Positions 33,592-42,949 of a stretch of DNA of 42,949 nucleotides are shown one piece after another; within the stretch, counting starts at the first letter, position 1, and every line of letters begins with the position of its first letter. The stretch is taken from positions 1 to 42,949 of the forward strand of contig NZ_PVWF01000037.1 of NCBI RefSeq assembly GCF_003003995.1, in the 5' to 3' direction. The notes beneath the pieces were generated by a model. The model had not been told where the DNA came from, ran no database searches, and saw only the letters and a program-made list of their open reading frames with translations. Both the position numbers and the translations under genes were made by a program. Source of the DNA: Pleurocapsa sp. CCALA 161 (GTDB taxonomy: Bacteria > Cyanobacteriota > Cyanobacteriia > Cyanobacteriales > Xenococcaceae).

Positions 33592-34788
33592 TTAGGCAAT
33601 ACTGCCTCGTTTACGGGCTTCTTTGTAGGATGTGCCGACGTTGCGTAAACCTGCTTTAATTAGCTGCTGTTCTAATAGACCAAAAAAACGCGCGCGATCG
33701 CTGCCTCGAACTACGGCTTGATTATGAGCTTCTGCTAGGGCGACAGGATAACCATAACCTTTCTGTACCTGAGCCAACATAATACTCAAAGACTGATCGA
33801 ATAGAGCCTGATCTTCTACTACCCAGGCAGGAACTTCAATCCGTGCTACTTCTGCACCAACGTTGACATAGCAAAAATAGACTCTTTGGGCTGCTTCGTA
33901 AAGATCTAAAATACGTAAATTACTCCGATATAAAGGGCTACGCTGTCCTGGTTGGAGGCGACTTGCCCAATAGGTTGAATCTCGTAGAGAATCTATTTTC
34001 TGACAAGGATATTTTTCCACTAGATCGCCACAATGAGATACACAGTTTGGCTGTTCATGTTCACAGGTATGCAAGCGCAGAAAGTTTAGTCCTTCAGTAC
34101 TTCGGGATGCACTGACATAACCCATCAGGGGAATTTGAGTTTCTCTGAGGCGTTCACAAGCAGCGAGAATCGGCGGTAATATTTTATCTCTTGCTTCCCC
34201 AGGCAAGCCATCTAAAAACCAGTAAATTAACGAACCATCAACCAAAGCCAGATTAGGTACATGATGGTGTTCTCCTGGGGGTAGCACCCAATTACAGGCC
34301 ATTTCTGCCAACATTTCGGCTTCGGCTACCGTGCGTCGATAACCCATCCATTCCTCTAACCGAATACCCCACTGTCGAGAGATGTATAAGTCTTCGGTTT
34401 TGTAAAAAACTTCGGGAAGGCTATCTAATAATGGATGTAGGCTTTGTCCATAATGAAGCATAATCTGACCGATGTTAATCAGATAGCAGTAGGCAATCTC
34501 ATGGTGAGAAGGAGAAATCTGTGAACCATCGGTAGCAAAAACACTATGGCTATAGGGTGCGGTTGGAATCTCAAAACATCGATCTAAAGGCTCGATGGGA
34601 GTAGCTGCGGCAAACAGCAGGCGATCGCGAAAATCTGTCTGCTGCTGAATTAATTCTGTCTGTAACTTAGCTGCCTGTCGCTGTAAATTTTGGGCATACT
34701 CCAGTCTTTTGCTGGAGGCGATCGCCTCTTTGTGCAGATGTTGACTAATTCCAGGAATTTGTCCCGCAATTTTGGCTAGGTCTAACAT
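33592..34788 (-). CDS. NurA-domain nuclease
   Basis: This 398-residue protein has the NurA/RNase H-like core. The first metal aspartate is D87 in VFATDGSQISPSHH. A second is D184 in NLALVDGSLIYW. A late histidine in VALAEAHNQAVV is also conserved-looking. In archaea NurA trims DNA ends with HerA and the Mre11-Rad50 complex. In bacteria the domain is found in stand-alone proteins whose partner is often a HerA-like ATPase; none is seen here. It is cytosolic. The N-terminal 60 residues form a coiled-coil-like helix. It lies 137 bp upstream of the DprA/LOG-like gene and 89 bp downstream of an MscS channel gene. Confidence 0.88.
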   Translation of the reverse strand: MLDLAKIAGQIPGISQHLHKEAIASSKRLEYAQNLQRQAAKLQTELIQQQTDFRDRLLFAAATPIEPLDRCFEIPTAPYSHSVFATDGSQISPSHHEIAYCYLINIGQIMLHYGQSLHPLLDSLPEVFYKTEDLYISRQWGIRLEEWMGYRRTVAEAEMLAEMACNWVLPPGEHHHVPNLALVDGSLIYWFLDGLPGEARDKILPPILAACERLRETQIPLMGYVSASRSTEGLNFLRLHTCEHEQPNCVSHCGDLVEKYPCQKIDSLRDSTYWASRLQPGQRSPLYRSNLRILDLYEAAQRVYFCYVNVGAEVARIEVPAWVVEDQALFDQSLSIMLAQVQKGYGYPVALAEAHNQAVVRGSDRARFFGLLEQQLIKAGLRNVGTSYKEARKRGSIA

Positions 34789-34877
34789 AGTTTTGCATAA
34801 TTATTGTAAATAAAGCAGATTTATCAATTTTAAATCGACGGATGTTGCTCCCCTAACCGAGATAGATAGATGGTTGG

Positions 34878-35762
34878 TTAGTTAGTTTGTTCGACCTCAA
34901 CAGGGGAATAATCGTGATATTTTTCTTGATCGTAATAGTAAAGAGTACGTATAGGATAAGGGATACTAATATTTGCTCGATCCAAAGCTGTTTTAATCGC
35001 CATTATGGCTTTAGTTTGTACCCTACGCAGTTGTCTTTGCTGGGATCTGCTCCAATAACGCACGACAAAGTCAATGGAACTATCGCCAAAGTTGACCAAG
35101 TCAACTTCAGGACTAGGTTCGCGCATAACCCCTTCAACCTGACCAATTGTTTGCAATAATAGTTGACTCGCTTCGGGTAAGGAGGTATTGTAATCGACTC
35201 CTACTGCTAAATCTGTTCGCCGATAATCATAAGCAGTAACCACTTTAACTGCATCGGCAAAAACCGCTGAGTTGGGTAATAAGACTCGTTCTCCTTGATA
35301 GGTACGAATCTTGGTAGTACGAATACTAATATGTTCGACTTTTCCCTGATATTCACCAATTACGACCTCATCACCAATCCGAAATGGTTCTTCAACTAAC
35401 AAAATAATTCCTGCTAAGAAATTCTTGAAAATATCTTGGAAGGCAAACCCAATCGCTACCGAACCCACCCCCAGCGTCGCAATAATATCTCCTAGCTCAA
35501 ATCCAGGAAATGCCAAAACGCAGGCAAGCAAAATTCCTACCGTCCATACGCCGATGCGACATACTTTGATGAGCAATAGCTGTAGGGAAGTACTTTTAAT
35601 CGCGCGCCTTCCTGTTTCATCGGCAAGTTTTAAGGTAATTTTGACTGCGTATTGAGTCAAAAATAACACTACCAAAGCCGATAATAAACTCGGTAGTGCT
35701 TTAATACTTTGACCTAGCAACTCCAGTAAAACTTGAACAATTGTATTAATGATTTCGGGCAT
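34878..35762 (-). CDS. Small-conductance mechanosensitive channel (MscS family)
   Basis: This 294-residue protein has three N-terminal membrane helices (about 20-40, 65-87 and 92-122). The pore-helix motif is GVGSVAIGFAFQDIFKNFLAG, followed by EPFRIGDEVVIG, which opens the beta domain. The vestibule domain includes ISIRTTKIRTYQGERVLLPN and AIKTALDRANISIPYP. It opens under membrane tension to release solutes during hypo-osmotic shock. Length and layout match E. coli MscS (286). It is the first gene of the minus-strand group, with a 517-bp AT-rich region upstream. Confidence 0.95.
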   Translation of the reverse strand: MPEIINTIVQVLLELLGQSIKALPSLLSALVVLFLTQYAVKITLKLADETGRRAIKSTSLQLLLIKVCRIGVWTVGILLACVLAFPGFELGDIIATLGVGSVAIGFAFQDIFKNFLAGIILLVEEPFRIGDEVVIGEYQGKVEHISIRTTKIRTYQGERVLLPNSAVFADAVKVVTAYDYRRTDLAVGVDYNTSLPEASQLLLQTIGQVEGVMREPSPEVDLVNFGDSSIDFVVRYWSRSQQRQLRRVQTKAIMAIKTALDRANISIPYPIRTLYYYDQEKYHDYSPVEVEQTN

Positions 35763-36279
35763 AGTTTTACCGTTAATAATCAGTGTTAGATATATGTTTT
35801 AGCATCTTAAAGTGGAAATTTTGCTAATTACTAAGGCAATCTGGATTATTTGGATGGACACGCAATTGAGAAAATTAATATTTTTCGTCTGAACAAGATG
35901 TTTGGGCAAAACTATATCTTGGCAATTGCATAATTTGTTCAATTGACCCTGTCTACTCGTTTTCAACTAATGTTGTAGCTTGATATATTTCCGTAAGTAA
36001 AATTATTTACTCCACAATCATTAAAATCTCGCCTCACGACCTTGTAAAATATAAATAGGCAATTAATTAGCACTCAACTTAGCAGCAAATTTATCCATAC
36101 AATGCCTATCCACTAAAGCTATCAGAGTTTAAATAAGTAAATTTACACATTATTTACATTTTTACGGCAATAATTACTTAAACTTTACGGCTTGCTCCCA
36201 TATTCGCGGATATACTGAGTTTAAGTCATAAAAATAAACATAGTAACTCTATTGTAATCACCAACATATCAGTAAATTC
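35763..36279. other. 517-bp AT-rich intergenic region
   Basis: This region separates the divergent MscS gene and the small coiled-coil ORF. It is very AT-rich. A GTA-N8-TAC match (35997-36010) and the palindrome GTAAATTTAC (about 36139-36148) are present, but such short matches are expected by chance here. No gene, hairpin terminator or repeat array is seen. Confidence 0.5.
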
Positions 36280-36555
36280 ATGGAAGACATTAATAACTAT
36301 ATTTCTGCTATTCAACAAGAGATTGTTGCTGAAGAAAAAACCGTTAAGGTTGCTCGGTTAATTATTTTGCTAATCAAAATTGAGAAAGAATTAGCTGCTG
36401 TGAAAGAAACTTTAGCCAAATTGCAAAATCATCAGCAAAAATACAACCAAGATTCTCAGCTATCGGCACAAATTGAGCAGAAAATTGCTACCGTCAACCG
36501 CCTTTCTGCCAAAATTAGTAAAGCAAGACTTAATTTAAACTACTATTTTATTTAA
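36280..36555 (+). CDS. Small coiled-coil protein of unknown function
   Basis: This 91-residue reading frame encodes an almost wholly helical sequence rich in Lys, Glu, Gln and Leu, for example LIKIEKELAAVKETLAKLQ near residues 31-49. The heptad spacing of hydrophobic residues suggests a coiled coil. I do not recognise a family. The ATG at 36280 lacks a strong Shine-Dalgarno, and there are no co-directional neighbours, so it could be spurious. The codon use looks coding-like. There is no signal peptide. Confidence 0.5.
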   Translation: MEDINNYISAIQQEIVAEEKTVKVARLIILLIKIEKELAAVKETLAKLQNHQQKYNQDSQLSAQIEQKIATVNRLSAKISKARLNLNYYFI

Positions 36556-36733
36556 AGTCTGCATTTTAATTACAGCCGTCTAATTTTAAAAAAATTAACT
36601 ATAAAAACTCTCATAATTTTGAGTAAATAAATCTGCAAATTGTTTTGAGGCTGGTGTTTATGTCAGTCTGTGAACGAGGAAGGCGATTAATCTACTGCAC
36701 TTTTGGGTTGAATACAACACTTGATTGAGTGAT

Positions 36734-36797
36734 CAACGTGGTCTGTTCAATTGAACATGGGGATGGCGAACTTGCATTGTCAGGTCAAACCACGTTG
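36734..36797. terminator. Inverted repeat downstream of the tandem kinase-like gene
   Basis: CAACGTGGT (36734-36742) is the exact complement of ACCACGTTG (36789-36797). Just inside lies the perfect palindrome GTTCAATTGAAC (36745-36756). It starts 17 bp past the kinase-like gene stop on the minus strand. There is no T-run, so it may be a transcript-end structure or a small repeat. Confidence 0.4.
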
Positions 36798-36814
36798 TTG
36801 AAAACTGCTGTAAA

Positions 36815-39800
36815 TTAATTTAGACGACAGCCTAACTGTCTCATATAGTCCATAATTATCGTCGATGCGCCACCTGCTGCGCGTGCGCTGCGATATGTGT
36901 CACAGGCTTGATTATACTGAGCATTTTTGGTTTGGAGCGAACCTTTTAAGCCCCATAAGGCGGAATTTTGGGGATAAAATTTAAGTCCGCGATCAATTGC
37001 CGAGATGGCTTGATTATCTTTACCTAAAGCTGACCAAGCGATCGCCAATTCTCGCCAAATTTGCACATCGTAAGAGCTAAGTTCACTCGCCTTGGTTAAA
37101 GATTCGATCGCTTGAGTATATCGTCCTTGCTGATTTAAGACAACGCCGCGATCGCGCCACAACAAAGGGATATTATCATTAATTTTGAGAGCTTGATCGT
37201 AGTTAGCGATCGCCTGATCGAGATTATTTTGCTGTTGGTAGATTGTGCCTTTAGCCTGCCAAGCTTGATAAGATTGAGGACGGATTTGGAGCGCGCGGTC
37301 TAATGCCGCCAAGGCATTTATCCCCTGACCATTTTGTGCTAAAGCTTCGCCTTTGCCTAACCAGCCTCGATAACTATCGGGCATTAATTTAATCGCCTGG
37401 TCATAAGCTGCGACTGCTTTGCTATACATTTGAGTTGCTGCAAAAAAATCTCCTTGAGCAATCCAAGCTGATCTATCTTCGGGACGCTGCTGGGTGATTT
37501 TAATATAGTTGTTATTTATTTCTTTGCGAACTTTTTCCGCCTCTTGAAAACGATTTAAAGCCTTTAAAACAAAAAACTTATCTTGCCATAGCTCAAGACT
37601 GTCAGGTTTAATTGCCTGAACTTGATTAAATAAGTCCAGCGCCTCAGGATATTTTCTCAGTTGAAATAATATTTTGGCGCGATCGCTTAAAAACTGAGGA
37701 TTGAGCTGATCGCGCTCTAATGCTGCATCTTGCATGACCAAAGCGGCTTCATATTGCTGAAGTTGGAATAAAGCCTGTCCCTTGCGATTATAGATTATGG
37801 CTTCTTGTGGCTCTAACCTTAACGCTTGATTATAGGCGGAGATAGCTTCAGTAAAATTATCGAGACGGAATAAAGTATCTCCTCGCTTTTGCCAACTAGA
37901 ACCAAGATCGGGATTTAACTCTGTCGCCTCAATGTAGGCATCTAAAGCTTCAGGATAGCGTTCCATAGCTGCTAAAGCATCTCCCTTCCCTAACCATGCC
38001 CGCCAACTCTGAACTTGAAGATTAATCGCTTGAGTAAAGCGATCGACAGCAGCCTGGGGCTTCTGGGGCAATAGTTTCTGACCCTGATACAAATAATAAA
38101 TAGGTCTAACAGTTGGAAAAGTAAATTCAATACTGCCCAGTAAACAAATAACACCTAATAATCCCACCAGCAGGGGCAAACTCGATCTTGGCTGCCGATT
38201 AACAGTCTTAACATCTTGAAGTTGAGTTTTAGGTGGGTGGTGATTTAAATCGTAACTGTTAATTTTTCGTAGCTCACTAAGAACTTTGTCGGCTGAGGTA
38301 TATCGCTGTCCTAAATCTAGCTGAACTAATTTATCAATAATTTTAACTAAACGGCGGTCTAGATTGAGATTTTGCTCCCATAACAACTTCCCATTCTTTT
38401 CCCTGGTAAAGGTTGCTGGCTTAGTTCCTGTCAATGCCTCAATTATAGTCATGCCCAAGGCGTAAAGATCGCTGCTAATCGTCGGTCGTCCCGCAACCTG
38501 TTCTGGTGGGCAATAATTTTGTCGGTCAACGCTGCGATTATCGACCAAATTAGCCAAATTTGAGCGGGTTTTAATTTCATGCAAAATACCAAAATCAGTG
38601 ATAATTACCTGCTGATCTAGTTCGCGAACGATTAAATTAGACGGCTTAATGTTGCGGTGAATTAAACGATTTTGATGAATAAATTGCAGAACAGATAAAC
38701 TACTATCTAAAATCTGAACTATTTGAGCAGTAGAGAGATTTTGCTGGGCTATTCTCTGGGCGAGACTTTTGCCCTGAATATATTCTTGAACTAGGTAAAA
38801 TTCATCGTTTTCTTCAAAATGATCCCGTAGTTGAGGAATTTGCTCATGATAGCCTAGTCTTTCTAAAACAGATAATTCTTCGACAAAATGATGTTCGAGC
38901 TGAATCTTGTTGTCATCATCGCTATGAGGTAGTTCAAGTTGTTTGATTAAACAAGGAGATTGATATTGACGGTGCAGATTATTAGCCAGATAAGTCTCAA
39001 CCCCTTCATTCCCTCCTAAATAGTTTGTAATTAGATAGCGACCACCTACTAACTGTTTAATTTTGAGCAATGGCCGCAAATCTTGCAGCACCTCTAAAGC
39101 AGAAAGATAGCGATGCTCTACTATCGGGGACATCATTTTAGTGAGAATTGCCTCTAATTTACTGCTGATCTGACATTGCGATCGCCAGTCAAGATTAGCT
39201 TGCTCTAACTCTAGGGGCGATCGCCCTGTTAAAGCATAAACAGCAGTTTTAGCCAGGGCATAAATATCACTGCTAAAGTAGAACTCTCCTGCTTTTTGCT
39301 CTGGGGCAGCATAGGCTGGATTACCAATACCTCTACTTAACATTAGCTCCCCTTGTAGGTTAATTTCATTGGCTTCAATTTTACGCAGTGCGCCAAAATT
39401 AATTAAAATATGAGCCTGATTCTGCTTGCGTCTAAGCAAATGAACTGGTTGAATATCACGATGCAGCACATTAGTCTTATGAATAAAGTCGAGAATCCTT
39501 AACCCATCTTGGATCAAGTAAACTGTCTCGGCTTCGTCAAATTTTTTACGTTCAATTTCTTGTTCGAGATTATCACCGTCAATATATTCACGGACGAGAT
39601 AAAATTGTTGACCTTCGCTAAAGTAATTTTGGATCTGGGGAATTTGAGGATGATCTCCCAGTCTTTTGATGAGCGTAACTTCCTTAAACAGATATTCTTG
39701 AATAATTTGCCAATTTACTTCATTTTCGCTGTCAAAGTCCAATTGTTCGACTATGCACTTTGCATCAACCATAGTCTGTAAGTCTTTTGCTAGATAGGTT

Positions 39801-39874
39801 TGTTCCCTTTCTGAGCGACCTAACTTTTGAATAATCTGATATCGATTATCAATAATAGTGCCTGGCAGGTGCAT
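36815..39874 (-). CDS. Tandem kinase-like domains with membrane segment and TPR array
   Basis: This is a 1019-residue protein. Domain 1 (about 10-270) is kinase-like but has E43 in place of the ATP lysine (CIVEQL), a degenerate glycine loop, HRDIQP (D140 kept) and NFG (N159) instead of DFG. Domain 2 (about 278-540) keeps K311 (CLIKQL) and DFG (427-429) but has HRNIKP, so N408 replaces the catalytic aspartate. A membrane helix lies at about 567-586. About eleven TPR units follow to residue 1010 (for example SWRAWLGKGDALAAM). The kinase-like half is thus cytoplasmic and the TPRs would lie on the other side, if the helix is single-pass. Kinase-TPR fusions are common in cyanobacteria; two successive degenerate kinase domains are not. 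It may be a signalling scaffold. Confidence 0.93.
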   Translation of the reverse strand: MHLPGTIIDNRYQIIQKLGRSEREQTYLAKDLQTMVDAKCIVEQLDFDSENEVNWQIIQEYLFKEVTLIKRLGDHPQIPQIQNYFSEGQQFYLVREYIDGDNLEQEIERKKFDEAETVYLIQDGLRILDFIHKTNVLHRDIQPVHLLRRKQNQAHILINFGALRKIEANEINLQGELMLSRGIGNPAYAAPEQKAGEFYFSSDIYALAKTAVYALTGRSPLELEQANLDWRSQCQISSKLEAILTKMMSPIVEHRYLSALEVLQDLRPLLKIKQLVGGRYLITNYLGGNEGVETYLANNLHRQYQSPCLIKQLELPHSDDDNKIQLEHHFVEELSVLERLGYHEQIPQLRDHFEENDEFYLVQEYIQGKSLAQRIAQQNLSTAQIVQILDSSLSVLQFIHQNRLIHRNIKPSNLIVRELDQQVIITDFGILHEIKTRSNLANLVDNRSVDRQNYCPPEQVAGRPTISSDLYALGMTIIEALTGTKPATFTREKNGKLLWEQNLNLDRRLVKIIDKLVQLDLGQRYTSADKVLSELRKINSYDLNHHPPKTQLQDVKTVNRQPRSSLPLLVGLLGVICLLGSIEFTFPTVRPIYYLYQGQKLLPQKPQAAVDRFTQAINLQVQSWRAWLGKGDALAAMERYPEALDAYIEATELNPDLGSSWQKRGDTLFRLDNFTEAISAYNQALRLEPQEAIIYNRKGQALFQLQQYEAALVMQDAALERDQLNPQFLSDRAKILFQLRKYPEALDLFNQVQAIKPDSLELWQDKFFVLKALNRFQEAEKVRKEINNNYIKITQQRPEDRSAWIAQGDFFAATQMYSKAVAAYDQAIKLMPDSYRGWLGKGEALAQNGQGINALAALDRALQIRPQSYQAWQAKGTIYQQQNNLDQAIANYDQALKINDNIPLLWRDRGVVLNQQGRYTQAIESLTKASELSSYDVQIWRELAIAWSALGKDNQAISAIDRGLKFYPQNSALWGLKGSLQTKNAQYNQACDTYRSARAAGGASTIIMDYMRQLGCRLN

Positions 39875-40009
39875 TGCTTTTTCGGAATTAGTGGCTAGGA
39901 AGGTCTATTGTAGTTTGACTAGCTTGATTGTGAGGGAGCAACTTTTACTAGTTCGTAACCTGGAAAATATTTTAGCTGATCGTTTCAGCTTAAATATCCG
40001 ATTGTACAG

Positions 40010-41239
40010 TTATGGTCTAGTCAGGTTTGAGCGACTAGAAATGGGTTGAACAGCGGTACTTTGCTTGAGGTTAACTATCTTAGTGGTGTTGCTTTCTCTC
40101 GCCACACGAACTAGTAACCCTGCCAGTAATAATGAAGCAATAATTGAATTAATGCCATAACTAAAAAAAGGTAGAGGTAAGCCAGTCGTCGGTAAAGAAC
40201 CTGTGGCAACACCAATATTAATCAATGATTGTCCAATAATAAACACCATTGCTCCCACTGCAACTAATCGTGGCAGTTCTTGACTACACTTAATTGCGAC
40301 TCTTAAAGCTAGAGTGCCATAGCCAATAATTAACAATAGCAGCAGTACACAACCGATAAAGCCAAATTCTTCGGCATAAACGGCAAAAATAAAGTCGGTC
40401 GAGCGAATTGGCAGAAATGATAATTTTTGTTGAGAAAGACCATATCCTGAGCCGCTAAAACTGCCAGAAGCGATCGCCAGTAAGCTTTGGATTAGCTGAT
40501 ATCCCTTGTTATGATAGTCCTGCCAAGGATCGAGGAAGGAAGTGATCCGATCTAATTGATAGGGATTCAAGGCAATACTGAGGCTGGCTATGCCTACTCC
40601 TCCTCCCGCTACGGTTAGTAACTGACTCAAGGGTAATTCAGCAGCCAGAGCAATCAGCCACAAACTCATCCCACATAGTCCTGTAGTACTTAAATTAGGC
40701 TGCTTCAAAATTCCTGCTAATACCAAAGCAAAAATGATTAACCAGACTAATCGTACTTTATTAGTCAATTTATGCCAGCGGGAAAACAAATATGCTGATT
40801 GGAGTACCAAAAAGGGTTTAATTAACTCAGAAGGCTGCAAGGAAAAAGGCCCAATGGCAATCCAGCGACTTGCTCCCATGGTGGTCTTGCCCAAGCCAGG
40901 AATCAATGTGGCAAAAATTAAGACTAAGAACACTAACACCATCAAAGGCGCAATCTTAATCGTTTTATTCAACGGTAGACGAGACACTAGGTTAAATCCA
41001 ACAATGCCCACCGCCACCCCAATCATCTGGCGTTTTAAAATATACAGTCCGTCATTATTGTTGACCATTCCTTCAGGATAGGAAGCGGACATTAAAGTCC
41101 CTAAGCCAATAATTAACCAGACGCAGGTTAGCCAGTTTAATAAGCGGGCTTCCCATGTCCAAGATTTAACTTGAGGCGCGACGAAAGGAACGAAATAACT
41201 AAGATATTGCTTAACAACTTTAGTTTTTTTAGCTTTCAC
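40010..41239 (-). CDS. ftsW: FtsW-type SEDS glycosyltransferase
   Basis: This 409-residue SEDS protein has about ten membrane helices. It shows the FtsW/RodA signatures ASRWIAIGPFSLQPSELIKP, DRITSFLDPWQDYHNKGYQL, and FLPIRSTDFIFAVYAEEFGF (the last holds the aspartate needed for polymerisation), and ends with a typical SYGINSIIASLLLAGLL. SEDS proteins polymerise lipid II into glycan strands with a partner class b PBP. It is more like FtsW than RodA. The start is GTG at 41239. Its upstream neighbour is the first terD gene, divergent. No division cluster genes such as ftsQ or murG are present. Confidence 0.93.
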   Translation of the reverse strand: MKAKKTKVVKQYLSYFVPFVAPQVKSWTWEARLLNWLTCVWLIIGLGTLMSASYPEGMVNNNDGLYILKRQMIGVAVGIVGFNLVSRLPLNKTIKIAPLMVLVFLVLIFATLIPGLGKTTMGASRWIAIGPFSLQPSELIKPFLVLQSAYLFSRWHKLTNKVRLVWLIIFALVLAGILKQPNLSTTGLCGMSLWLIALAAELPLSQLLTVAGGGVGIASLSIALNPYQLDRITSFLDPWQDYHNKGYQLIQSLLAIASGSFSGSGYGLSQQKLSFLPIRSTDFIFAVYAEEFGFIGCVLLLLLIIGYGTLALRVAIKCSQELPRLVAVGAMVFIIGQSLINIGVATGSLPTTGLPLPFFSYGINSIIASLLLAGLLVRVARESNTTKIVNLKQSTAVQPISSRSNLTRP

Positions 41240-41530
41240 TAAGATTAATTTTGAGGTTTGTATTTTTGCTTTTTCAAGGTAGCAGATGATTCCCCTAAAT
41301 TAAACCCAAGTCAGAGATAAACAGTTTACTCTTTTTCCTGAATCAGCCCCAATGGATTAATTTGTCTCTTAAAAGTTAAATCAGGAAAGTAGATAATATT
41401 GACAAGAGGAAAAGCCAAGAAACTGAAGACTATTCTAAAATTTATTAAAATAAGCACAATCAGCAGTTAACACCCAGATTGAGTTTCCGACTGAGCAAAA
41501 TACCGAGTAAAAATTTAGGACAGATCAACA

Positions 41531-42106
41531 ATGACTATTAATTTGAGCAAAGGGGAAAGAATTTCTCTTGAAAAAGTAGCCCCAGGACTAGTACAGATTT
41601 TTATCGGCTTGGGCTGGGACATTAACGTTACGGATACTGGAGGGGACTTTGATATTGATGCGTCAATTTTTCTTTTGGACAGCAACGATAAGTTGATTTC
41701 CGATCAGCACTTTATTTTCTACAATAATTCCAAAAGTCCAGACCCTGAACAATCAATTCAGCAACGGGGTGATAATCGCACTGGCGCAGGAGAAGGAGAC
41801 GACGAGATCATTGATGTCAACCTTAAAACTATTCCTCCAGAAGTAGTAAAAATGGCTCTTACCGTCACTATTCATGAGGCGGAGAAGCGTCACCAAAATT
41901 TTGGTCAGGTAACTAATGCTTTTGTCAGAATTGTCAACTGCGAAAATGAACAAGAAATCATTCGCTACGATTTAACGGAAGACTTTTCCGTAGAAACAGC
42001 CTTGATTATGGCAGAACTTTATCGCAAGGATGGTGAATGGCGCATGAATGCTGTCGGGGCGGGTTATCAAGGTGGACTACAGGCTTTGGTAGAACGATAT
42101 CAATGA
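41531..42106 (+). CDS. TerD family protein, copy 1
   Basis: This 191-residue protein belongs to the TerD/CABP family. It opens INLSKGERISLEKVAPGL and has GLGWDINVTDTGGDFDIDAS (acidic calcium-site region, residues about 28-47), GDNRTGAGEGDDE (second calcium site), IHEAEKRHQNFGQV and the C-terminal signature DLTEDFSVETALIMAELYRK. TerD proteins bind calcium and are linked to tellurite resistance and stress responses, but tellurite is probably not the natural signal. An AGGA is 12 bp upstream of the ATG. A second paralogue lies downstream; the two share most motifs and near-identical last 40 residues. The stop codon is within a heptamer-like CAATGAA pair. Confidence 0.93.
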   Translation: MTINLSKGERISLEKVAPGLVQIFIGLGWDINVTDTGGDFDIDASIFLLDSNDKLISDQHFIFYNNSKSPDPEQSIQQRGDNRTGAGEGDDEIIDVNLKTIPPEVVKMALTVTIHEAEKRHQNFGQVTNAFVRIVNCENEQEIIRYDLTEDFSVETALIMAELYRKDGEWRMNAVGAGYQGGLQALVERYQ

Positions 42107-42292
42107 ACAATGAACAGCGCGAAGTTAAGGCGCGTTTTGAGAAAGAGTATTCTTACTCAAAAGCCGCCGTGCGTTGCCCTAAAGGACTTGCTTCGCGGCG
42201 CGGGGGTTTCCCCCGTTGTCCCCATGGGTACACCTTCGGATAAGCAAACTTCGTAAGAAGTGAGCAGTAATTAATAATTTGTAATCAAAAAC
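42101..42292. repeat. Repeat-rich spacer between the two terD genes
   Basis: The gap contains, in order: two CAATGAA heptamers overlapping the first terD stop (42101-42114), the second copy of the dispersed hairpin repeat (42129-42168), a CCTAAAGGA...GCTTCGC segment shared with the devB-devC gap, a hairpin CGGGGG-TTT-CCCCCG (42201-42215), and degenerate heptamers (GAGCAGTAATTAATAATT) before the second terD. A 68-codon frame through it is an artefact. Confidence 0.75.
42129..42168. repeat. Dispersed hairpin repeat, copy 2
   Basis: GGCGCGTTTTGAG pairs with CTCAAAAGCCGCC, with the AAGA/TCTT arms closing the inner stem. The outer arms match copy 1 (8176-8219), while the loop-proximal bases differ. 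Arms conserved but loop divergent suggests the structure, or the mobility of the element, matters. Confidence 0.75.
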
Positions 42293-42868
42293 ATGGCAGT
42301 TAATTTAAGTAAAGGACAGCGCATTTCTTTAGAGAAAATAGCACCAGGAATCAGCGAAGCATTTGTAGGCTTGGGTTGGGATACAAATATTACTGATACG
42401 GGGCAAGATTTTGATATTGATGCTTCTGTATTTTTGCTAGATCGCAATGAGAAGTTGATCTCAGACAATCACTTTATTTTTTATAACAATCTTGCTAGTC
42501 CTGATCCTCATAAATCTGTCGAGCATTTGGGAGATAATCGCACGGGTGCAGGGGAGGGAGACGATGAGGTAATCAAAGTCAATCTCAAGCAAGTCCCGCC
42601 AGACGTAAATAAGATTGCGATGGTGGTAACTATTCACGAAGCGGAACAACGTCAACAAAATTTTGGACAGGTGCAGAATGCTTTTGTGCGCGTGGTTGAT
42701 GCCCAAAACAAACAGGAAGTAGTACGTTATGATCTGACAGAAGATTTTTCTGTGGAAACGGCTTTGATTATGGCAGAACTCTATCGCAAGGATGGTGAAT
42801 GGCGAGTTAATGCTGTTGGTGCAGGCTATCAAGGTGGTTTACAGGCATTGCTAGATCGTTATCAGTGA
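42293..42868 (+). CDS. TerD family protein, copy 2
   Basis: This 191-residue protein is the tandem paralogue of the gene upstream, with the same length. It carries VNLSKGQRISLEKIAPGI, GLGWDTNITDTGQDFDIDAS, GDNRTGAGEGDDE, IHEAEQRQQNFGQV and the ending DLTEDFSVETALIMAELYRK. Both calcium-site regions are intact. Differences cluster in the middle third (about residues 55-120), while the ends are almost unchanged, which suggests either constraint or recent gene conversion. The reading frame is complete, with ATG at 42293. The stop codon opens a heptamer array that runs off the window edge. The role, as for copy 1, is in stress or metal-related processes and is not precisely known. Confidence 0.93.
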   Translation: MAVNLSKGQRISLEKIAPGISEAFVGLGWDTNITDTGQDFDIDASVFLLDRNEKLISDNHFIFYNNLASPDPHKSVEHLGDNRTGAGEGDDEVIKVNLKQVPPDVNKIAMVVTIHEAEQRQQNFGQVQNAFVRVVDAQNKQEVVRYDLTEDFSVETALIMAELYRKDGEWRVNAVGAGYQGGLQALLDRYQ

Positions 42869-42949
42869 GCAGTGAGCAATGAGCAATGAGCAATGAGCAA
42901 TGAGCAATGAGCAATGAGCAATGAGCAATGAGCAATGAGCAATGAGCAA
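42863..42949. repeat. Heptamer array (CARTGAG)n after the second terD
   Basis: Two CAGTGAG units and then about ten CAATGAG units run in register from 42863 to the window end, where the array is cut. The first unit overlaps the terD stop codon (TGA 42866-42868). It is a cyanobacterial STRR-type array. Confidence 0.93.

Follow-up and report, generated by a model that had tools for sequence, protein, structure and literature searches.

Among the closest described counterparts of the protein reported here are the PASTA-type receptor kinases PknB, Stk1 and StkP, which combine a kinase inside the cell, one membrane helix and a repeat ectodomain. In passages of one source, such kinases are placed beside SEDS and cell-wall genes in Actinobacteria, in a cluster comprising pknA, pknB, rodA and pbpA, and MviN (MurJ) of mycobacteria is presented as a membrane pseudokinase with links to peptidoglycan synthesis (PMC3989709). 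HER3 is described as binding ATP with a Kd of ~1 uM though its catalytic Asp is Asn, a residue also found there in JAK JH2 (PMC4718504). Among the bacterial pseudokinases named in a 2025 review (CP1, DLHK and others), Lys, HRD or DFG is lost, and CP1 occurs in cyanobacteria (PMC12599244). Here we analyze a window of 42,949 nucleotides, meaning the whole stretch of contig NZ_PVWF01000037.1 of Pleurocapsa sp. CCALA 161 that was examined. Its gene at 36815-39874 (minus strand), which also lies beside a SEDS gene and shares such losses, encodes two pseudokinase domains in tandem, followed by a membrane helix and tetratricopeptide repeats (TPRs), and this architecture is real and conserved. From sequence and analogy, we consider it rather likely that the protein is a membrane receptor or scaffold that arose from an active tandem Ser/Thr kinase and would no longer transfer phosphate. 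This proposal builds on the observed domain order, residues, conservation, low ratios of nonsynonymous to synonymous substitution (dN/dS) and position beside an ftsW-type gene.

Architecture and catalytic residues of the tandem protein

The open reading frame (ORF) encodes 1019 amino acids (aa) with zero internal stops. Pfam assigns the product Pkinase in two stretches (197 bits) together with many TPRs; against PF00069, domains 1 and 2 score 118.9 and 86.3 bits, both exceeding the cut-off of 31.7. For comparison we aligned 44 tandem proteins, with duplicates and fragments removed: 11 rows of the window's genus, 5 other clade-A rows with intact fold motifs, the clade-A row L026, 16 rows of a paralogue clade B and 11 others. 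Clade A, the window's type, comprises 17 genomes in the tree (support 100/100; genus plus L026 100/100; genus 100/99). Features of the protein are as follows, with models from AlphaFold2 (AF2) and genus counts for n = 11.

36815..39874, minus strand: tandem pseudokinase-membrane helix-TPR protein, 1019 aa (ORF without internal stop, Pfam, AF2)
39071..39850, minus strand: kinase-like domain 1, aa 9-268 (Pfam; AF2 fold nearest Stk1/PknB)
39746..39748, minus strand: E43 (GAA) replacing the beta3 lysine, domain 1 (genus: E 9, K 1, Q 1)
39455..39457, minus strand: D140 (GAT), HRD aspartate kept, domain 1 (genus: D 9, N 2)
39440..39451, minus strand: Q142 and H145 replacing catalytic-loop Lys and Asn, domain 1 (genus: Q 11/11; H 9, N 2)
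39398..39400, minus strand: N159 (AAT) replacing the DFG aspartate, domain 1 (genus: N 8, D 3)
39320..39322, minus strand: N185 replacing the P+1-loop Thr, domain 1 (Thr in 0/11 genus rows and 5/5 other clade-A rows, L026 apart)
38264..39046, minus strand: kinase-like domain 2, aa 277-537, HRN type (Pfam and alignment)
38942..38944, minus strand: K311 (AAA), beta3 lysine kept, domain 2 (genus: K 11/11)
38651..38653, minus strand: N408 (AAC) replacing the HRD aspartate, domain 2 (genus: N 11/11)
38594..38596, minus strand: D427 (GAT), DFG aspartate kept, domain 2 (genus: D 10, N 1)
38522..38524, minus strand: R451 replacing the P+1-loop Thr, domain 2 (Thr in 0/11 genus rows and 5/5 other clade-A rows, L026 apart)
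38120..38179, minus strand: single predicted membrane helix, aa 566-585 (hydropathy; AF2 helix 567-585)
36833..38074, minus strand: TPR array of ~12 helical pairs, aa 601-1014 (Pfam, AF2, Foldseek)
36827..36904, minus strand: C991 and C1016, end of the TPR array (alignment of clade-A rows)

Translation and codons confirmed the two kinase domains and the six residues named in a preliminary description of this DNA (E43, D140, N159, K311, N408 and D427). Its membrane helix joined to a TPR array was recovered as well, as one helix at ~566-585 followed by ~12 TPRs; the Kyte-Doolittle hydropathy of this helix is 2.2, against 1.05 in the best segment elsewhere in the protein. Domain 1 has further lost loop glycines 2 and 3 (S21, E24) and carries Q142, H145 and N185, while domain 2 has lost the same glycines (N289, V292) and the P+1 Thr (R451). 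The full catalytic set (VAIK Lys, HRD Asp, DFG Asp, P+1 Thr) is complete in neither: domain 1 lacks the Lys, DFG Asp and P+1 Thr, and domain 2 the HRD Asp and P+1 Thr. Both are pseudokinases by the bioinformatic definition, under which at least one of Lys, HRD Asp and DFG Asp is missing. No WNK-like substitute lysine was seen in the domain-1 glycine loop of the window when the alignment was checked by eye; the Lys after beta2 (YLAK/YLVK), common in the genus, is not at the WNK place.

Both C991 and C1016 are present in 16/16 long-form clade-A rows listed, L026 not being among them, and their positions are gaps in L070 and L071. At the N-terminus, an in-frame TAG precedes M1, with ten codons between and no ATG, GTG or TTG among them. 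This stop, 11 codons before M1 (window 39875-39907), is accompanied by a longer upstream open frame in 9/10 other genus rows, so that the window's start codon seems shifted.

Conservation, graded loss and selection

Both domains are degenerate in 11/11 compared rows of the window's genus. Domain 1 has lost the second loop glycine in 11/11 rows, at a position that drifts (E 5, K 3, S 2, L 1), and the third in 6/11; its catalytic-loop Lys is Gln in 11/11, its catalytic Asn is His in 9/11, and the P+1 Thr is lost in 11/11. Domain 2 keeps the beta3 Lys, the alphaC Glu, HRN and the catalytic Asn (N413) in 11/11 rows each and the DFG Asp in 10/11, which is the HER3-like HRN pattern, and has lost the P+1 Thr and the second and third loop glycines in 11/11. 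Because these glycines are missing from the other five clade-A rows as well, their loss appears older than that of the catalytic Asp. In both domains the fold residues (alphaC Glu, HRD His and Arg, DFG Phe, Pro and Glu of APE, alphaF Asp, subdomain XI Arg) are kept in 11/11 rows. A doubly degenerate protein kept nearly unchanged in sequence suggests a switch or scaffold rather than an enzyme. The putative regulatory pseudokinase pair of the preliminary description thus gains support from the shared degeneracy and from low dN/dS (below).

Decay confined to one strain, another earlier concern, does not hold, since the losses are common to the 11 genus rows and therefore represent a change of the lineage. 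Sequencing error at the codons for E43, N159 and N408 is likewise dismissed: Hyellaceae cyanobacterium CSU_1_1 (L072) matches the window at E43, D140, N159, N408 and D427, so the three substitutions are not errors of the window's sequence. The losses had also been described as complementary. Domain 1 retains D140 and domain 2 retains K311 and D427, as would be expected if the catalytic Asp came from domain 1 and the ATP site from domain 2. This arrangement is scarcely credible, however, given that D140 is Asn in 2/11 genus rows and that domain 1 lacks the second glycine, catalytic-loop Lys and P+1 Thr in 11/11. Kinase active sites are confined to a single cleft, and no kinase is known to us that divides its site between two domains in this way. 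Complementary active sites were ruled out, because most of the rest of the pocket is gone from domain 1 and D140 itself varies within the genus.

Judged by their motifs, the relatives grade from proteins with two apparently complete domains to proteins in which both appear dead. Lys, HRD Asp and DFG Asp are present in both domains of L070 (Hydrococcus), L071 (Gomphosphaeria), L020, L021, L027, L047 and L054, and also of L052, whose domain-2 alphaC Glu is replaced by Ala. The preliminary description had taken such complete homologues as a sign of random decay in a single strain; they do exist, but all lie outside the genus. L067 and L069 combine a complete domain 1 with an HRN domain 2, and L068 a complete domain 1 with a domain 2 that has HRD but NFG. 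In clade B, domain 1 carries Lys, HRD Asp, DFG Asp and P+1 Thr in 16/16 rows, and Asn replaces the HRD Asp of domain 2 in 16/16, 12 of them HGN. The shared pattern of clade B and L067-L069 indicates that domain 2 was lost first there. In L051, the beta3 Lys of domain 1 is Arg and the HRD motif of that domain is HRN, and domain 2 keeps the Asp (HQD). L026 is degenerate at most sites and sits on a long branch. In this clade-A row (G010:C19), most catalytic motifs are lost from both domains, with a frame still open over >1000 aa.

Across the 44 rows, the HRD Asp position of domain 2 is Asn 32 times, Asp 11 times and Tyr once, which takes at least four changes on the tree. Branching within clade A is weakly supported, so the HRN of L067/L069 and that of the genus could represent one event or two. 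These stages from complete tandem kinase to double pseudokinase make the kinase-to-pseudokinase change testable stage by stage.

Domain 1, predicted on its own by AF2 with 24 aligned domains, is still modelled as a kinase fold (predicted local distance difference test, pLDDT, 85.1; predicted template modelling score, pTM, 0.82). In the Protein Data Bank (PDB), this model is closest in fold to Staphylococcus Stk1/PknB and mycobacterial PknB, which supply its top three matches (TMq 0.76-0.77). The full-length AF2 model (pLDDT 75.8, pTM 0.47) contains a long TPR solenoid, mostly at pLDDT ~90, and N-lobes too poor for a domain 1-domain 2 interface; Foldseek with this model gave helical-repeat-type matches among the 50 best listed. 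A phmmer search of the PDB with the window's tandem part returned zero matches at 1e-20, whereas the A3 profile did match the PDB.

Selection was estimated by the Nei-Gojobori method in four genus pairs (WIN-L010, L011-L012, L014-L015 and L013-L018, the last with synonymous divergence, dS, >1 in both domains, the linker and the TPRs). In this order, dN/dS was 0.16, 0.25, 0.15 and 0.12 for domain 1; 0.13, 0.19, 0.12 and 0.06 for domain 2; 0.18, 0.18, 0.12 and 0.15 for the TPRs; and 0.42, 0.24, 0.56 and 0.42 for the ~30-codon linker. The extra pairs WIN-L011 and L010-L011 gave 0.16 and 0.21 for domain 1 and 0.12 and 0.08 for domain 2; in these pairs dS was everywhere >1, and for some parts it was extreme or undefined. 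Averaged over all pairs of the 11 genus rows, identity was 0.70 for domain 1, 0.71 for domain 2, 0.24 for the linker and 0.61 for the TPRs. The low dN/dS points to selection and hence to a functional protein.

These values bear directly on neutral decay, in which the kinase domains would be dying and only the TPR part would matter. Such decay could explain the broken frame of the CSU_1_1 copy, the extreme degeneracy of L026, the drift of some lost positions such as the second glycine of domain 1, and the domain-1 value of 0.25 in L011-L012. We nevertheless consider it very unlikely and already disfavored, as dN/dS is low in both domains in 4/4 pairs and near the TPR value in three, the kinase domains exceed the TPRs in identity, and the fold residues are invariant.

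Twelve positions of domain 1 have been re-fixed (one residue in >=10/11 genus rows, another in >=6/7 outgroup rows), though 86/260 domain-1 positions are invariant in the genus and shared descent alone makes positions look fixed. Placed by motif position, the switches G22E, Q95R, E101D, E102N and K142Q would lie around the nucleotide pocket. The same criterion yielded 5 positions in domain 2, four Leu/Val to Ile and one K314E.

In 4/4 pairs the dN/dS of domain 2 is lower than that of domain 1, as might be expected if domain 2 were a weak but real kinase and domain 1 its regulatory partner, in a JAK-like pair. Retention of Lys, alphaC Glu and catalytic Asn in 11/11 genus rows and of the DFG Asp in 10/11 fits this alternative, as does the report, in part of one source, of some activity at the HRN sites of HER3 and JAK2 (PMC7586955). 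The degenerate glycine loop of domain 2 weighs little against it, because the HRD-bearing L020 and L021 share that loop and the exact motif occurs in only 53.3% of the cyanobacterial serine/threonine kinases (STKs) of a 2007 survey (PMC2176072). We regard a weak kinase as unlikely, if still worth serious attention, since the P+1 Thr of domain 2 is lost in 11/11 rows and since in clade B, where the domain-2 HRD Asp is also Asn, the Lys and the alphaC Glu of that domain have each been lost in 11/16 rows.

Genomic neighborhood, distribution and kinases of the same genome

The upstream neighbor of the kinase gene is a cell-wall gene:

40010..41239, minus strand: SEDS (FtsW/RodA-type) gene (Pfam, TIGR02614, conserved adjacency)

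It lies 135 bases upstream and scores 317 bits in Pfam; the best model, TIGR02614 FtsW, gives 304 bits, yet under its cut-off of 337.5. A SEDS match is found on the same side in 18/18 family genomes with clade A, G017 included. Among the nine family genomes without clade A, six (L085, L087, L092-L095) had no tandem match beside the FtsW-type gene within ~1.5 kb or less per side, and no SEDS match was found within the 8 kb flanks of L070 and L071. The steady place beside an ftsW-type gene offers a concrete first hypothesis on function, and together with the analogy to the actinobacterial pknA, pknB, rodA, pbpA cluster it would link the protein to the cell wall. Rfam gave no match at gathering score in 34500-42949, and a scan of 34700-41700 predicted 24 promoters and 7 terminators where shuffled sequence averaged 17.3 and 5.3, an uninformative difference. 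Farther upstream, window 41531-42868 holds two adjoining TerD-like genes (Pfam on the first only); at this site CSU_1_1 has three TerD matches in a row.

The tandem query matched in 27/27 family genomes at 1e-60, in 20/195 genomes of an order sample at 1e-80 and in 5/292 of a phylum sample at 1e-75 (7 and 4 candidates per genome scored in the two samples), all three counts mixing clade A, clade B and other tandem types. Clade A itself occurs in 18/27 family genomes, counting G017 with its broken, CSU_1_1-like copy. A scan of named genomes found 11 loci, all in cyanobacteria (Pleurocapsales/Xenococcaceae/Hyellaceae types plus Hydrococcus and Gomphosphaeria), the nearest being that of CSU_1_1, with 93% identity in the best segment. 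Pleurocapsa sp. MO_192.B19 encodes a protein (L066:12260-14578) in which one HGN-type kinase-like domain is joined to a membrane stretch and TPRs. Its gene lies downstream of the clade-A gene with one opposite-strand ORF between, and the protein is 34% identical to the window's domain 2-TPR part.

The window's genome (5.37 Mb, 249 contigs) has 23 Pkinase matches, 22 of them over the cut-off. Of 20 domains aligned, 14 keep the catalytic Asp and the DFG Asp (the beta3 Lys of L107 being unplaceable). The six Asp-deficient domains are two in the window gene, domain 2 of a paralogue on C237, and one each on C60, C150 and C219; among the genes aligned, only the window gene has two such domains. The domains on C219, C150 and C60 (G000) lack the HRD or DFG Asp, and C219 also has Glu at the beta3 lysine. 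In the paralogous tandem gene (G000:C237:20706-22946), domain 1 is complete and domain 2 is of HGN type; the gene is conserved as clade B (16 rows). In the 2007 survey, five cyanobacterial STKs lack the catalytic Asp, and one, SpkE, showed no kinase activity (PMC2176072).

As a special case of the receptor or scaffold proposed above, the protein could be a dedicated allosteric partner of this paralogous tandem kinase, whose domain 1 is complete in 16/16 clade-B rows. A second tandem gene resembling clade B is present in 16/18 clade-A genomes (8 placed in the tree, 8 by identity and length only), with G009 and G010 showing a partial second match only. The pairing is little informative, because 27/27 family genomes, the nine without clade A included, have at least one tandem match. 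The two genes also lie on different contigs. We see only a slim chance for this partnership.

Proposed role and comparison with known systems

For the receptor or scaffold that we favor, the loss of catalytic residues and the HER3 and JAK2 precedents argue for a non-catalytic role, and the membrane helix, TPR array and two cysteines at the array's end for a receptor. Domains 1 and 2 would be cytoplasmic and the TPRs periplasmic, and a C991-C1016 disulfide would fit a periplasmic site. Domain 1 may keep the kinase shape for docking, without binding nucleotide. Domain 2, with its HRN and retained Lys, alphaC Glu, catalytic Asn and DFG Asp, probably binds nucleotide and, by analogy with HER3 and JAK2-JH2, would hold ATP without turnover; of the two domains, it alone is a plausible site for the nucleotide sensing suggested earlier. 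Ligand binding to the TPRs would alter how the two domains are posed or dimerized, and this change would recruit or allosterically set a partner, most likely the adjoining SEDS cell-wall machinery or a Hanks-type kinase with a complete catalytic set in the same cell. In its most specific form, the protein would be a HER2/HER3-like double-pseudokinase receptor that evolved stepwise from a fully active tandem kinase, through stages still represented by living relatives, senses the periplasm or wall through its TPR ectodomain and acts allosterically on an active Hanks kinase or the adjoining FtsW-type glycosyltransferase; so detailed a scheme is decidedly improbable.

Several observations weigh against the non-catalytic membrane receptor or scaffold. 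L040, a sister row and the nearest intact relative, keeps K43, so the lysine loss is not fixed even there, and three genus rows retain the DFG Asp of domain 1. In L048-L050, of another family, Asn occupies the HRD site of both domains with Lys and DFG Asp kept; by their motifs these rows are a second, separate tandem lineage with neither catalytic Asp, and the loss is not unique to clade A. With 6/20 aligned domains lacking a key Asp, pseudokinase domains are also not rare in the window's genome. In L011-L012, the domain-1 dN/dS of 0.25 is not below the linker (0.24) and is above the TPRs (0.18). The CSU_1_1 orthologue (L072:8001-11046) is split into three frame pieces, 93-97% identical by piece: its frame shifts twice, and the SEDS, NurA, FHA and MscS neighbors each give a single unbroken match. 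CSU_1_1 may be able to do without the gene, or its low-coverage assembly may be in error. The proposed topology draws on hydropathy and analogy, and HRN sites can retain weak activity, as reported for HER3 and JAK2 in the source cited above. The SEDS-kinase link is suggestive only. In 5/18 genomes from three genera (L086, L088-L091), an opposite-strand ORF lies between the two genes, which are thus not one operon there; translated in full in L067, this ORF is presumably FAS1-like. Genes near the FtsW-type gene, which we take to be apcA/apcB, are found also in three genomes without clade A (L093-L095), so the gene order may be held by something other than the kinase.

The window protein differs from PASTA kinases in having two kinase domains, both catalytically incomplete by their residues, and TPRs in place of PASTA. 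It scores 183.5 bits against NF033483 (PASTA kinase), short of the cut-off of 450, and among 25 of the 26 Pfam families listed for it, all are kinase-type or helical-repeat families and none is PASTA. MviN differs in being a multi-pass flippase with one pseudokinase domain, and is not known to have TPRs or a tandem. Yr15-type tandem kinase-pseudokinase proteins, reportedly described in plants, are immune proteins with two kinase-like domains in a row, one of them degenerate, and are not known to have TPRs. CP1 is described as linked to COG3899 and devoid of a membrane helix (PMC12599244), so the window protein, with its predicted helix, falls outside that description; the words 'tandem' and 'TPR' are absent from the main text of the same review. 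Like domain 2, HER3/ErbB3 and JAK2 JH2 have the catalytic-loop Asp replaced by Asn with Lys, catalytic Asn and DFG Asp kept (PMC4718504). Both belong to animal tyrosine-kinase families, however; HER3 lacks the alphaC Glu that domain 2 keeps, and domain 2 of the window protein is preceded by a second, more degenerate kinase domain. Among the best matches in open-licence PMC papers, judged by titles and the starts of abstracts, no bacterial tandem pseudokinase-membrane-TPR protein was found. In the literature so covered, the tandem double pseudokinase with membrane helix and TPRs is a novel variant, of a pseudokinase kind that is itself known.

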